Origin: a virus
Virus record (IMG/VR): IMGVR_UViG_3300034101_001533
Location: 1 to 25,963 of that record
Length of the DNA stretch: 25,963 bases
Strand: one strand, 5' to 3'
Shown here: positions 1 to 5,568 of the stretch, in pieces
Numbering within the stretch: position 1 is the first letter of the stretch
How the letters are laid out: each line of letters starts with the position of its first letter
Position numbers and translations under genes: made by a program
The notes under the pieces: model-generated
Told to the model about the DNA's origin: nothing
Database searches by the model: none
The model's input: the letters and a program-made list of their open reading frames with translations, nothing else

Positions 1-253
1 CATCCGCGAACCAGGGCCAGCCGTAAAGACTGCCCCCAGACCGATGGAACTTGACCAGCGTCCACAACAACCCGGCGGCCTCATCGGCAGGCTTAGAAGC
101 CCGCCAGCCGCCCGTCCTGGTATTCAGGCAACCCCGCACCGCCCGCACGGCTAACTCGTCAGAGGGGACCGCAACAGTCCCTCCCTCACGGAGTTTTCGT
201 AACGGATCGGCAAGAGCAGCCATCACTGCCAGGGAGTGATCCACTTTTGACAT
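1..253 (-). CDS. Unrecognised protein, 3' end outside window (partial)
   Basis: This leftward reading frame is open from an ATG at 253 to the window edge, giving 84 codons with no stop. GGAGG lies a few bases upstream of that ATG on the minus strand, which is why I chose this start. An in-frame ATG at 379 would add 42 residues; a TGA sits two codons before it and its ribosome site is weak. The peptide begins MSKVDHSLAVMAALADP and later has a Trp/Gly-rich stretch (TGGWRASKPADEAAGLLWTL). I recognise no family. It is divergent from the gene at 817, with the repeat-rich control region between them, so it may belong to a separate, perhaps early, transcription unit. It could be a phage or a host gene. 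Confidence 0.6.
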   Translation of the reverse strand, partial: MSKVDHSLAVMAALADPLRKLREGGTVAVPSDELAVRAVRGCLNTRTGGWRASKPADEAAGLLWTLVKFHRSGGSLYGWPWFAD

Positions 254-500
254 GGAGCCTCCAGAGAGTTTGGCCTCATCAGTACCCGCATCACGGGTAG
301 ACCGCACAAGGCGGTTTCGGCCTGGGACACCGAGACGTTTGCCCAGAATCGTCGTATAAGGGGCCGGTTTTCCCCACATCGCTCAAGGCGACCGGATAGC
401 ACCAAGCAAGGGACACCTCCTTTGCTGCCCGCATGCGGATAGTACCATATAGTACCATTCCGCAGGCGGAGTGAAACCGCGGACGATTGCCGCGACGTAT

Positions 501-524
501 CTATACCATCGACGTACCATCCGG
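501..524. repeat. 24-bp direct repeat, copy 1
   Basis: A 24-bp sequence starting CTATACCATCGACG is identical to 669-692. It contains TACCAT at 504-509 and again at 515-520, 11 bp apart, about one helical turn. It runs into a dyad of CCGGGAA (521-527) and TTCCCGG (538-544). A diverged relative at 441-462 has TACCAT at 443 and 453. The arrangement looks like a protein-binding site repeated three times. Confidence 0.8.
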
Positions 525-626
525 GAAGGAAAAATCTTTCCCGGACGGGCCGCGATGAGAACGCGGGGCAGTCGCAACGCGGAAAACCGCGAACGAACGA
601 AAACCGCGGGAAACCGCGATTGAATC

Positions 627-660
627 ACAATCGTTCCGCGTTGGGAACGGTTGCGATTGT
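627..660. repeat. Imperfect inverted repeat in control region
   Basis: ACAATCG (627-633) pairs with CGATTGT (654-660). Inside it, CGTTCC pairs with GGAACG around a GCGTTG loop, with four extra bases on the right arm. It lies between the AAACCGCG cluster and the second 24-bp repeat. Confidence 0.55.
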
Positions 661-668
661 TACGCCCC

Positions 669-692
669 CTATACCATCGACGTACCATCCGG
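669..692. repeat. 24-bp direct repeat, copy 2
   Basis: Identical to 501-524, with TACCAT at 672-677 and 683-688. It is followed immediately by a perfect 6-bp hairpin, CCGAAA (694-699), loop GAT, TTTCGG (703-708). Both copies therefore sit next to a dyad, although the dyad sequences differ. Confidence 0.8.
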
Positions 693-738
693 CCCGAAAG
701 ATTTTCGGATTTACTATTTCACGGCCGGAAAACCGCGA

Positions 739-766
739 TTGAACCGGGCCGGGAATCCGATAGTAT
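739..766 (+). promoter_or_regulatory. Candidate sigma70-type promoter
   Basis: TTGAAC (739-744) and TAGTAT (761-766) are separated by 16 bp, about 50 bp upstream of the start at 817. The -35 box overlaps the end of the last AAACCGCGATTGAA word, so a protein bound there could control this promoter. Confidence 0.4.
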
Positions 767-816
767 GGGCAGACCGCCCGGGGGTTTCCCGGGGGATACA
801 TTTGGAGTGTTTCACC

Positions 817-1770
817 ATGTCGAAGCGAAACAAACTGACGGAAGAACAGCGGGCCGCCAACCGGGCAAAGAAAACCGCAAAGATGCGGCAACGGATGGCC
901 GGGATTGTTCATAGGCTTTTCGGGAGCCTCACGCCGGAACCGGTTCCCGGAACGGTTTTCGATCCGTTGGCCTATCTAACGTGTCCGGGCCGGTTCCGCG
1001 ACGTGCGGGCCTTCCTGCGATATCGGGCCGCCCGGGCCGGAGTCGGTGCGGGATTGCCGCGAGAGTTGAGGGCCGCCGCGTTAGATGATGCGGCCCAGAA
1101 TGGCCTAGACTTTTTCACGGCCCGCGATTACTCGGCGGCCGGTTTCGACGCGGACGCGGCCGCGTTGGCCGTGCTATCGGCGGCACGGTGGTGCGACCGG
1201 GCGAGGTGGCGTTCCATCGACGCCGACCGGGCATTTGAGAACGGAGCGACCTACCCCGGAGACTACGTCTTGTGGAACCGGGCCGCCGCATCCCGGACAG
1301 GAAACCCAGCGGCGGAAGTCGCCGCCGCGGAATCGTTGGGCATGGCATGGGGGGAAGTGTTTCCGGCCTGCCATGAAATCCCCGGCCCGGCCGTAGCGTT
1401 GCCGGGGGGGCCGTCCGGCCGCGGTGAAACCGATGGCCGTATGATCCGCGACGGCGGCCGTATTCGGTGGCGAATGAAACGGGGCCGCGGCAGGGCAAAG
1501 ACATTCGCCCCGGGCATTGTGCGGGATTCAATCCCAACAACGGCCCCGCGATACGTTCGCGGCCCGATGCCAGCGGGGAACGGGGGGCCGACTGAATGGC
1601 GAAAGATGCCCGGGGAGCCGGTGTCATACGCCGCCGATCCAGAAGCGTATCGGGCCGCGGTTGCGGCGTATCGGGAGCCCGGCGAGCCGAACTATGGGCA
1701 GGAAGCACGGGCCGCCCGCGAGGCGTTCGACACTTGGCGGGCCGCGTTGGCCGAGCGGTACGGCGACTAG
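817..1770 (+). CDS. Orphan protein of unknown function, GGCC-rich gene
   Basis: This is a 317-aa protein. I chose ATG 817 because GGAG lies at 804-807, 9 bases upstream; the longer open frame from 739 has no such site. The N-terminus is strongly basic with a predicted helix (residues about 1-30, many Lys/Arg/Gln). The middle is Ala/Arg-rich, and the C-terminal half is rich in Gly, Pro and Arg and is probably partly disordered. I recognise no catalytic motif. The gene stands alone between a candidate promoter and a strong terminator, unlike the packed array to its right. By hand count it has about 29 GGCC words in 954 bp, against about 6 in the 1.1-kb capsid gene, so its base use differs from the virion genes. 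It could be an early or accessory gene, or host-derived. Confidence 0.7.
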   Translation: MSKRNKLTEEQRAANRAKKTAKMRQRMAGIVHRLFGSLTPEPVPGTVFDPLAYLTCPGRFRDVRAFLRYRAARAGVGAGLPRELRAAALDDAAQNGLDFFTARDYSAAGFDADAAALAVLSAARWCDRARWRSIDADRAFENGATYPGDYVLWNRAAASRTGNPAAEVAAAESLGMAWGEVFPACHEIPGPAVALPGGPSGRGETDGRMIRDGGRIRWRMKRGRGRAKTFAPGIVRDSIPTTAPRYVRGPMPAGNGGPTEWRKMPGEPVSYAADPEAYRAAVAAYREPGEPNYGQEARAAREAFDTWRAALAERYGD

Positions 1771-1831: not shown

Positions 1832-2266
1832 CATTGGCGAACGGGGACGGGGAAGGGGAAGGTTTGCCAATGCATGGCGAACCAGCGGCCCACGTTTTCC
1901 GGCCCGATTCGGAACCTTGCAAAATCGTAAGGTATCGATCCGCCAATATCCCGCAAACCTAAGTCTATGCTGGCAAATGGTTTGCGACACGGGCACGGAA
2001 CGAGAGACACACCCCCCGAGGCCCCCCATCGCGTCGCGCCTATCAGGTCATATCCCTCCCTGGATTTTTTCACCCCACTAGCCCCCACATGACTCTCGCC
2101 CGCGTTTTGCCCCCCTCCGCCGTGTGTCGCGGCCGTTTGTTGCTGCGTGTCGCTCGCGTTGAATCGCCGTTCTCCGCCGCATAGCGGTCGTCGGTGTCGC
2201 ACTGGTTGGCATGGAGTCTCTGACGAGCGACATCTTCTGGTTGGACTGGGAGGATGATGAAGTTTG
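1832..2266. other. Gene-poor leader before the virion array
   Basis: I see no convincing gene in these 435 bp. A 30-codon frame at 1870-1962 follows a purine-rich stretch (AAGGGGAAGG) but looks weak. There is an 8-bp inverted repeat, CGCAAACC (1952-1959) and GGTTTGCG (1979-1986), with a 19-nt spacer, and three GTGTCGC words at 2124, 2147 and 2194. A promoter for the downstream array is expected here, but I could not find good -35/-10 boxes. The antisense frames crossing it share no clear features. Confidence 0.5.
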
Positions 2267-3506: not shown

Positions 3507-4708
3507 TGGCTGATGAACTCCGTGCCGGGAATCGCCCGTGGTTTCCCCGCTCTAGCCGCAACTTCTCGCTTGGCAACATCACGGAAGATGTGACTGACTG
3601 GTATTACCAGAGTCAGGCTGCCTCGGAGGACCGTGCCCGTCAGGCTGCGGCGGATGCCATCAACCCGCAGTTAAACACACAGGAAGGTTCGGCGGCGTAC
3701 CGCTTTGACCCGCAGCAGCAGCCCGGCCGATATGTGCAGGCGCTGGTGGAAGATGTGTCGGCTGGCGTCCCCGCCCCCGCGGCGCAAGAGACGGCTGGGT
3801 TTCAGAGCCCGTTCCAGCGATCCAAGCTCCCGCAGGCGCGGCAGTCTGGCCTCCAGCAGGCTGAGATGATGGAGCAGATGCTCGCGGCGTACGGCAAGCC
3901 GGTGAACGGCATGTTCCCGGCCGCTTGGCGGCAGTTGCCCGAGGAGCTGGCGCTGGACATGTACGCCTACGCCACCAACCAGGGCGGGTATCGGGATCGC
4001 CTGACGAGCCCGACAGAAACCACGGGCGTCTTGGGTGAGGGCTCTCCAGTCAACACTGCGTTGACCTGGGGGCAGTCGCTCCCGTCCACGCTGTATGCCA
4101 TCGGGGAAAACGTCGGCAATGCGGCCGATTACGTGACCAGCACGGCCATGGGTGGCATGCCCGGAAAACAGTTCCCAGATGCTGCGAAGAAGCTTTCGTA
4201 CGCAGTCAACACACTCACGGCACCGGGGCAAGCGATTGCCGAGGCCGCGGGCTACGCGCCGCAGGCAGGCGAAGGTCACTCCGCGTGGTCGGACATGAAG
4301 GATACGCGGAAGGATTTCGATGCCGGGGTGAACTGGGGGCAGATGGGATACACCCCAACGCCCTACGGAACGACCATGTACGACGCCATGCAGTATGGCA
4401 GCCTGTCTGACGAGGCGCAGAGCGTCGATCTCCAAGAAGGCAAGGACTACTTCATGGGCCAAGGGGTTCCGGAAACCCCGGCGTACTTCCTTGGGATGGC
4501 GACCGACGATCTCTTCAACCCCGTGTTCGATGCTCCTGGCATCGCCGCAGCAAGCAAGACTGGTCGGTTGCTCCCAATCGCCAAGCAGATCGGCATTGAG
4601 TTCGCACCCGGTCAGGTGATGACCGGCATGAGCATGGCCGCGCAGATCCGTGCCAAGCAGTTGGAAGATCAGGCGAGACAGGACGAACTGATCGGGAGGT
4701 TGCGGTAA
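3506..4708 (+). CDS. Putative internal virion protein, unknown family (400 aa)
   Basis: I chose ATG 3506, which overlaps the previous stop and has GGAG at 3496-3499. The N-terminal 120 residues are Gln/Ala-rich and low in structure. Residues about 120-300 mix helices with Gly/Ala/Thr segments, and the C-terminus is a charged helix (MAAQIRAKQLEDQARQDELI). No catalytic motif is evident. The composition and the position just before an ADP-ribosyltransferase-like gene resemble pieces of large polyvalent or internal virion proteins that some phages inject. The adjacent genes could thus be separated modules of such a protein; this is inference. Confidence 0.55.
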   Translation: MADELRAGNRPWFPRSSRNFSLGNITEDVTDWYYQSQAASEDRARQAAADAINPQLNTQEGSAAYRFDPQQQPGRYVQALVEDVSAGVPAPAAQETAGFQSPFQRSKLPQARQSGLQQAEMMEQMLAAYGKPVNGMFPAAWRQLPEELALDMYAYATNQGGYRDRLTSPTETTGVLGEGSPVNTALTWGQSLPSTLYAIGENVGNAADYVTSTAMGGMPGKQFPDAAKKLSYAVNTLTAPGQAIAEAAGYAPQAGEGHSAWSDMKDTRKDFDAGVNWGQMGYTPTPYGTTMYDAMQYGSLSDEAQSVDLQEGKDYFMGQGVPETPAYFLGMATDDLFNPVFDAPGIAAASKTGRLLPIAKQIGIEFAPGQVMTGMSMAAQIRAKQLEDQARQDELIGRLR

Positions 4709-5568
4709 TGGCAGGACCGGGAGCAGTCGATGACGTACTGCGAGCCATCGCTGGTCAGGCGGAGCAGCCCAAGTACATCCGGGCGTATCACGGGAGTCCT
4801 CACAGCTTCGACAAGTTTGATGCGTCGAAGATCGGGACGGGCGAGGGCGCGCAATCGTATGGCCACGGGCTGTACTTTGCGGGCAACGAAGATGTGGCGG
4901 ATGTCTATCGCAAGGCTTTGTCTGGGCCATACTCGCAGGCGCTTGCGCCAATGGAGGACATCCCAAAGTTCTTCGCGCCCGGCAATGTCGTCCCCGGCTA
5001 CGGGGGGCGCGACAAAGTGCTGCGATTTTTCCCCGGCCCAGATAATGAGCCGTGGAACTGGTCCGTAGAGGTCGTTGGCGCGGATGCGGCTGGCGTCCCA
5101 AAGCCGTACGAACGGCCACGCATACACAAAACACACCCGGCAATGCGAGACGTCGATGCATTTTTCGGCAGAGAGCCGACTAGACCGGGGCATGGATACG
5201 AAGTGGAGCTAGGGGTGCCCGAGGGAGCGTTGCTGGACTGGGACGCTCCGTTACGCAGTCAGCCTGTTGTGTCGCGGCGGATTCCGGACTATGCGAAAGC
5301 CATGGATGCTGATGCCACGGGGTACAACCTGTACGACTGGATGAAGTTGTGGCATGGCGGCCCGCAGGGGGCGTCTGAGGCCCTGCTAAAAGAGCATGGG
5401 ATCCCGGGCATCCGCTACCTGGACGGGAACTCACGCGCAGCAGGCCAGGGCACCCGCAACTACGTCATGTTCCCCGGCACCGAAGACTCCATCCGCATCT
5501 TGCGGAAGTACGGGCTGATGGCGCCAGTGACGGCTGGGCCAGCCGCGCAGTCCGGTAGAGAGCGGTAG
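4708..5568 (+). CDS. ADP-ribosyltransferase-like protein (ART-PolyVal type)
   Basis: This 286-aa protein starts at ATG 4708, overlapping the previous TAA, with GGGAGG at 4694-4699. Residues 26-58 read AYHGSPHSFDKFD, SKIGTGEGAQSYG, HGLYFA: the His (28) and Tyr (56) motifs of the H-Y-E class of ADP-ribosyltransferases, in the form seen in the ART domain of phage polyvalent proteins. The C-terminal GIPGIRYLDGNSR and TRNYVMFPG blocks also match that domain. These enzymes transfer ADP-ribose from NAD to a protein or nucleic acid. The third catalytic residue is not certain from inspection. Family members are usually parts of very large injected proteins; here the domain stands nearly alone among virion genes. 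It might be carried in the particle and act early on the host; substrate unknown. Confidence 0.8.
   Translation: MAGPGAVDDVLRAIAGQAEQPKYIRAYHGSPHSFDKFDASKIGTGEGAQSYGHGLYFAGNEDVADVYRKALSGPYSQALAPMEDIPKFFAPGNVVPGYGGRDKVLRFFPGPDNEPWNWSVEVVGADAAGVPKPYERPRIHKTHPAMRDVDAFFGREPTRPGHGYEVELGVPEGALLDWDAPLRSQPVVSRRIPDYAKAMDADATGYNLYDWMKLWHGGPQGASEALLKEHGIPGIRYLDGNSRAAGQGTRNYVMFPGTEDSIRILRKYGLMAPVTAGPAAQSGRER

Follow-up and report, generated by a model that had tools for sequence, protein, structure and literature searches.

The 25,963 bp of DNA analysed here, hereafter the window, form a virus record and encode a P22-like portal, a large terminase subunit and a capsid protein. The phage belongs to an uncultured group with relatives of about 60 kb, so that the window covers part of a genome; the records of 11 relatives measure 59-62 kb, and three of the relatives' records fetched carry terminal repeats of 124-127 bases that resemble those of circular assemblies. 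Close to the left end of the window, a control region separates a leftward gene from a rightward gene that we call the cassette gene (Table 1). The leftward gene (5-253) has no PHROGs or Pfam match, and no tRNAs were found in the window. Further to the right, a predicted protein (4708-5568) has a weak match, under the curated cut-off, to ART-PolyVal (ADP-ribosyltransferase of polyvalent proteins).

Searching viral contigs with the capsid protein gave 131 relatives, of which 80 were kept. Among bacterial contigs the same protein had two matches, at 93% identity in a Pirellulaceae MAG and at 76% in a second MAG, which is labelled Ignavibacteriales. Because capsid relatives occur in MAG contigs (Pirellulaceae), the host is probably a planctomycete, an assignment that carries the caveat that MAG binning can err. 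All 11 relatives' records encode a resolvase-type recombinase, which suits a temperate life without proving one. One record of 117,778 bases (G004, with L017 and L036) has two capsid genes about 57 kb apart with differing cassettes, and represents either tandem phages or an assembly join. Contigs C68, C176 and C178 of the Pirellulaceae MAG G018 (L164, L166-L168, L171) are pieces of apparently two relatives, again with differing cassettes, through co-residence or a binning artefact.

Table 1. Features of the control region and its flanks (window coordinates; a dot marks features given no strand).
Feature	Position	Strand	Basis
First leftward gene; start codon at 253, runs off the left end of the window	2..253	-	ORF
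Left boundary element CTGCCCGCATGCGGAT; common to relatives with differing cassettes	425..440	.	sequence comparison
ATAGTACCAT x2 (TACCAT pair 443/453); likely -10 region of a leftward promoter	439..458	-	sequence, weight matrix
AAACCGCG word 1	474..481	+	word count vs shuffles
Repeat R1, 24-bp copy; leftward reading, T-rich box at right, TATA-like left end	501..524	-	direct-repeat test
Hairpin / T-rich box adjoining R1	517..548	.	sequence, folding
AAACCGCG word 2	584..591	+	word count vs shuffles
AAACCGCG word 3	601..608	+	word count vs shuffles
AAACCGCG word 4	611..618	+	word count vs shuffles
Repeat R2, identical to R1; start-to-start spacing 168	669..692	-	direct-repeat test
Weak hairpin CCGAAAGATTTTCGG after R2, listed as terminator-like	694..708	+	folding, terminator scan
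AAACCGCG word 5	730..737	+	word count vs shuffles
Likely rightward promoter TTGAAC-16-TAGTAT (739-744, 761-766)	739..766	+	weight matrix, score 10.9
317-aa cassette gene of a new protein family (class with A5); putative reader of R	817..1770	+	ORF, profile comparisons
Single-copy conserved noncoding element GTCATATCCnCCCCTGGATTTTTTCACCCC..., near right end of exchanged segment; not phage-specific	2047..2091	+	comparison

The preliminary description of this DNA had noted three pairs of TACCAT (443/453, 504/515 and 672/683), two identical 24-bp repeats and five AAACCGCG words, and all of these are borne out, the pairs at their exact positions. Six of the seven TACCAT copies of the window sit in the control region; the total is unremarkable (at least seven in 21 of 100 shuffles), and the clustering is the striking part. 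The spacing of 10-11 bp within pairs, which had been taken as helical phasing, is not general, since one relative (L025) keeps an 11-bp pair and another (L024) has one TACCAT per counterpart of the 24-mer. All five window copies of AAACCGCG lie in the control region, against 1.08 expected, and five copies were reached in none of 100 shuffles. The 24-bp pair, whose copies we call R1 and R2 and whose sequence we call R, is the best direct repeat of the region (score 24; none of 40 dinucleotide shuffles exceeded 11). At the site of the ATAGTACCAT doublet (439-458), many relatives have a AGTAATACGTTACT-like near-palindrome instead. The 17-mer TACCATCGACGTACCAT matched 10 viral contigs with one copy each and was taken as chance.

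In a weight-matrix scan, TTGAAC-16-TAGTAT ranks best on the + strand of the region, and a strict consensus scan of positions 200-1000 listed no promoter. A candidate promoter had been described as overlapping the last AAACCGCG word; the candidate is present but abuts the word without overlap. The best leftward match of the region has a -10 TACTAT at 449-454 (score 8.0). That R itself is a leftward host-type promoter was rejected, as the 67 copies gave no significant result (p=0.10). As for the hairpins said to follow both 24-bp repeats, the first (514-552) is strong at -21.8 kcal/mol (z -4.48) and the second (682-716) weak at -5.8 kcal/mol (z -0.63); another in the window, at 571-663, is also strong. 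Across the phages compared, hairpin excess at p<=0.05 was found beside R1 in 19/34 phages, beside R2 in 5/33 and in a control stretch in 12/34. Hairpins, not clearly above the control stretch in 34 phages, were rejected as a defining part of R.

Homologous control regions were collected from 38 loci, the window included, and 34 remained after removal of near-duplicates (L043, L085, L088 and L161). Also dropped were L053 and L054, with anchors in apparent coding sequence, and the loci equal to others (L036 to L035, L089 to L088, L016-L018 to L014); the region of MAG contig L164 was read and left out of the counts. In 33 of the 34 regions, the best direct-repeat pair at a distance of 60-300 bp tops all 40 dinucleotide shuffles. 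L084 has a single R copy, the best pair differs from R in L040 and L160, and its second member lies outside R2 in L058; the R copies of these four were entered by hand. R1 and R2 are 77-214 bp apart over 33 phages. Conservation of the repeats in close relatives was a check set out earlier, and the answer is divided: the layout is kept, but the letters differ, with another repeat standing at the same place.

What the repeats share is a frame. On the leftward strand, the 67 copies of R show a T-rich box, either GATTTTTTCC or GGAATTGTTC, separated by about 11 variable bases from a TATA-like box; the common frame is GATTTTTTCC-N-TATATA; repeats of class C, a class of the adjoining gene (see below), have GTTC in place of GATTTTTTC. 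For the 23 of 33 two-copy phages that were picked by eye for register (10 left out), a choice that flatters the within-phage values, identity within a phage and between phages is 88% and 31% for the 8-base core, 86% and 69% for the T-rich box, and 78% and 45% for the TATA-like box. An inverted copy of R lies in the last 85 bases before the cassette gene in 10 of 33 phages (p<=0.02; L084 left out of the test). It matches over 16 consecutive bases in L077 and coincides with the best predicted rightward promoter of the region in L037 and L061. The remaining 23 phages, the window among them (p 0.22), have none at p<=0.02.

The repeats are also nearly private to this one place. Both in the window and in the records of nine relatives, R cores (2 mismatches allowed, 4 for three long ones) occur in the control region in 2-3 copies. 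G010 has two extra core matches at 4 mismatches of 18, one R copy alone passes the core threshold in G009, and the sole extra match of whole R strings at 68% identity is one of 18 of 26 bases in G014. Within these records R is thus essentially confined to the control region, a few weak matches apart, and in this is unlike stoperators or a sigma regulon. To the right of R1 in some relatives (e.g., L022, L037 and L041), a CTGxCxGCAT...CCAG motif is similar to the left boundary element, a likeness that duplication of a unit could account for.

The genes to the right of the region fall into three classes, which profile comparison shows to be related (E 1.6e-13, 4.6e-12 and 1.4e-6). As judged from sequence, the family is new and very diverged, with no relative in the libraries searched. 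Nothing significant was found for the window's protein against PHROGs and Pfam, for six family members against Pfam and six against PHROGs, for 17 class-A members against NCBIfam or for 12 class-C members against Pfam; the best E across these family searches was 0.015, below significance. Among solved structures, profile searches hit chains with no relation to the family, the best at E 0.011. A direct search of viral contigs with the window's protein found no relatives, nor did tblastn against the phage records, and relatives were reached via the capsid gene and family alignments.

Structure prediction gave a fairly confident model for class A (pLDDT 81.6, pTM 0.56) and a poor one for the window's protein (pLDDT 44.6). 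Foldseek returned nothing at E<=0.001 for the class-A model. When 111 Foldseek chains were re-ranked structurally, transcription-initiation or sigma entries took ranks 1, 2, 3 and 5, with Z 5.7-6.5, a range in which the tool warns of common helical arrangements. Of these chains (9isn_F, 9m9e_F, 9m7y_F and 6dxo_A), the title says sigma factor for 9isn_F alone; the other three we take to be sigma chains from title or recall. The alignment to sigma region 2 covers residues 24-104 of the class-A model at its widest consistent range. Unrelated chains follow at Z 5.7-5.0; rank 4 is DdrC, and RECQL5 stands at Z 5.3. Comparison of the cassette family with phage (A7) or host (A8) sigma profiles by hhalign gave E 0.095-0.68, no match, and the positive control, A7 against A8, gave E 2e-8. 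A sigma factor, suggested by eye and by the structure ranking, is not supported as the identity of the cassette protein because the sigma profiles are negative while the control works; a sigma-like fold is only hinted at by the model.

Gene and repeats change together, also among phages whose capsids are much alike. The window and L014 have nearly the same capsid (similarity 0.99), yet score 0.02 in the cassette protein and 0.25 in R. In a Mantel test on 28 phages (6 of the 34, without a capsid gene in their locus, were dropped), similarity of the cassette protein correlated with that of R at r=0.635 (0 of 2000 permutations) and with that of the capsid at r=0.137 (41 of 2000); for R and capsid, r was 0.168 (11 of 2000). 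With the effect of the capsid removed, the protein-R correlation stood at 0.626 (0 of 2000). The protein's correlation was lower with the 70-base leader (0.378), with the spacer (0.367, for which no permutations were run) and with the left boundary (0.17). Because R and the gene adjoin, the protein-R correlation is in part plain linkage; the excess of R over the equally linked leader and spacer argues for a functional tie between R and the protein. A counter-case is the class-C pair L072/L077, in which the proteins are similar (0.79) and the letters of R differ.

The edges of the exchanged segment can be seen in pairwise comparison. Positions 1-262 of the window are found at 96.6% identity in L022 and L025. 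Likeness to the left flank stops at the boundary element, at 436 in L037 and 434 in L061, and in both it resumes on the right from about 1,915 to 2,050. In 10 of 11 relatives' records, irrespective of the cassette they carry, the noncoding element at 2047-2091 clearly exceeds background; it could be a late promoter or a packaging site. Contigs end near this conserved element in several cases (within about 40 bases in L087 and in L062 of record G016, about 100 in L027 and about 220 in L030), which might reflect physical genome ends there.

We propose that the control region and the gene at 817-1770 form an exchangeable specificity cassette, that is, a regulator gene together with its own sites at a divergent switch, and we put the chances of this reading at about even. 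The gene would encode a DNA-binding regulator that recognises R1 and R2 and, in about one-third of the relatives, the inverted copy near its own start as well; the presence of that copy before the gene (10/33) suggests self-control. Binding to R would set the diverging leftward and rightward transcription, including that of the regulator's own gene. Related phages have versions here that are unrelated in both gene and sites, so each would be blind to the sites of another, and the outcome would be superinfection specificity. What we observe is a conserved layout, private repeats that are essentially confined to the locus, and gene and repeat versions that change jointly among phages of similar capsid; we infer from this that R is bound by the protein, that the binding regulates transcription and that superinfection is thereby decided. 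Several findings speak against the model, among them linkage as part of the protein-R correlation, the differing R of L072 and L077, and the exceptions L040, L160 and L084. In the window, R1 and R2 share no bases with the predicted rightward promoter, and the inverted copy is missing. The leftward-promoter test of R was not significant, hairpins beside R hardly exceed the regional background, and the searches placed the cassette protein in no recognised DNA-binding family, with a poor model for that of the window.

Of the two interpretations offered in the preliminary description, an operator array or an iteron-type replication origin between divergent genes, the operator reading is the better half and is partly supported in changed form. 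The region lies where the genes diverge, it holds the same place in relatives, and its repeats track the neighbouring gene; the operators themselves are predicted. If the specificity cassette is real, it would be an immunity-type switch in little-studied phages, probably of planctomycetes, with a new protein family. Its natural sets of matched sites and proteins would make the specificity code of a new DNA-binding family readable from sequence, and cassette versions would serve as a marker of superinfection groups in metagenomes. Among the titles listed in a search of open-licence literature, none concerned such a region.

The origin reading, which we consider unlikely, would have R1, R2 and the words bind an initiator encoded next door and the A/T-rich boxes melt, with the diversity of the repeats reflecting incompatibility. 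A/T-rich boxes do adjoin R although the genome is GC-rich, and a neighbouring gene that co-varies with the sites suits an initiator as well as a regulator. The 38 proteins of one relative include a helicase, SSB, ERF and an exonuclease, with no replication initiator among the matches listed (25 of 60 PHROGs families). The iteron form of the reading found no positive support: each phage has two copies 77-214 bp apart and no regular array (33 phages). A switch of GC skew near the region was the check set out for an origin, and it came out in part. In the three terminal-repeat records, the minimum of the cumulative skew falls no more than about 1 kb from the region, but the maximum, at 49-53 kb, is not opposite the region and lies near the change in gene direction; mechanical ORF calls in these records run mostly rightward from the control region to about 53 kb and leftward more often beyond it. 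Because of the position of the maximum, skew does not separate an origin from gene direction, and as an origin test it was set aside as not decisive. In G011, gene direction is mixed past about 53 kb (mechanical ORF calls), and the skew declines between 13 and 33 kb too, where most genes point rightward.

Less probable still, in our view, is a promoter lock, in which the common frame of R would serve as a promoter for a conserved phage sigma factor encoded elsewhere, and the private core in the spacer would be recognised by the cassette protein. A Sigma70_r2 gene lies away from the cassette in 12 of 16 relatives' records, the four without one being among the shorter (43-54 kb), and identity to the first of ten aligned copies is 51-94% for the other nine. 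R does have a common frame of T-rich and TATA-like boxes, the inverted copies of L037 and L061 coincide with the best predicted rightward promoters of those regions, and the conserved element at 2047-2091 also contains GGATTTTTTC; the phage sigma factor would perhaps read this element too. Against this, GATTTTTTC-like words occur elsewhere as well, mostly in coding sequence, class-C repeats carry GTTC instead, and the leftward-promoter test gave p=0.10, with a host-type matrix where a phage sigma factor could read another motif. If true, the lock would mean that related phages share a transcription machine and keep private switches that are changed by cassette exchange. In a MAG phage contig, the Sigma70_r2 gene faces a serine recombinase gene (L197-L207 are the sigma copies).

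Control at the RNA level, with R1 and R2 in a rightward leader transcript or small RNA pairing with the inverted copy at the ribosome-binding site, is the most doubtful of these readings: it could draw on the inverted copies near the start codon in 10/33 phages (16 consecutive bases in L077) and on the strong hairpins at 514-552 and 571-663, but 23/33 phages, the window included, have no inverted copy at p<=0.02, hairpin excess is moderately above the control beside R1 (19/34 against 12/34) and found in 5/33 phages beside R2, and no Rfam RNA family was found in the window.

The locus shares traits with several known systems. In P1 c4 and P4 CI, immunity is exerted by an antisense RNA that pairs at the ribosome-binding site. 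The inverted copies near the ribosome-binding site in some relatives recall this arrangement; the window (p 0.22) and most relatives tested differ in having no such copy (10/33 have one). Iteron-type origins consist of an array of regularly spaced direct repeats. The present region resembles them in its direct repeats, A/T-rich stretches, neighbouring gene and local GC-skew minimum, and departs from them in its two copies, variable spacing and the absence of a recognised initiator family.

The sigma factors of phiEco32-like phages are described as having promoters whose places, not letters, are conserved while the factor diverges (PMC8948821). Places rather than letters are likewise kept here, and the class-A model hints at a weak likeness to sigma region 2. 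In those phages the promoters stand before many genes, whereas R is confined to one locus and sigma profiles gave no match to the cassette protein. In Cluster A mycobacteriophages, repressors and sites differ between phages and correlate, with up to 30 sites in a lysogen (PMC6550527), and a second study describes a monomeric repressor on an asymmetric site (PMC9283540). Asymmetric sites with a phage-specific motif are thus common to both systems, the motif correlating with the repressor there and with the cassette protein here. The described stoperators, up to 30, are spread genome-wide, unlike the two or three copies of R in one region; in the nine records and the window, R was found in the control region, except for the two weak matches of G010.

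Lambdoid immunity regions decide which phages can share a host, and related lambdoid phages carry unrelated gene-plus-site versions, each of which ignores the sites of the other. Searches for the HTH_3 and S24 repressor families had hits in none of 11 phage records, and no CI/Cro-type protein was found there. The sites also differ in kind, being asymmetric direct repeats of a framed core, and immunity is here a putative outcome. The likeness lies in a divergent switch whose private operators would be exchanged, together with their putative reader, among otherwise similar phages, as seen in the correlation of the cassette protein with R (r=0.635) against that with the capsid (0.137) across 28 phages.
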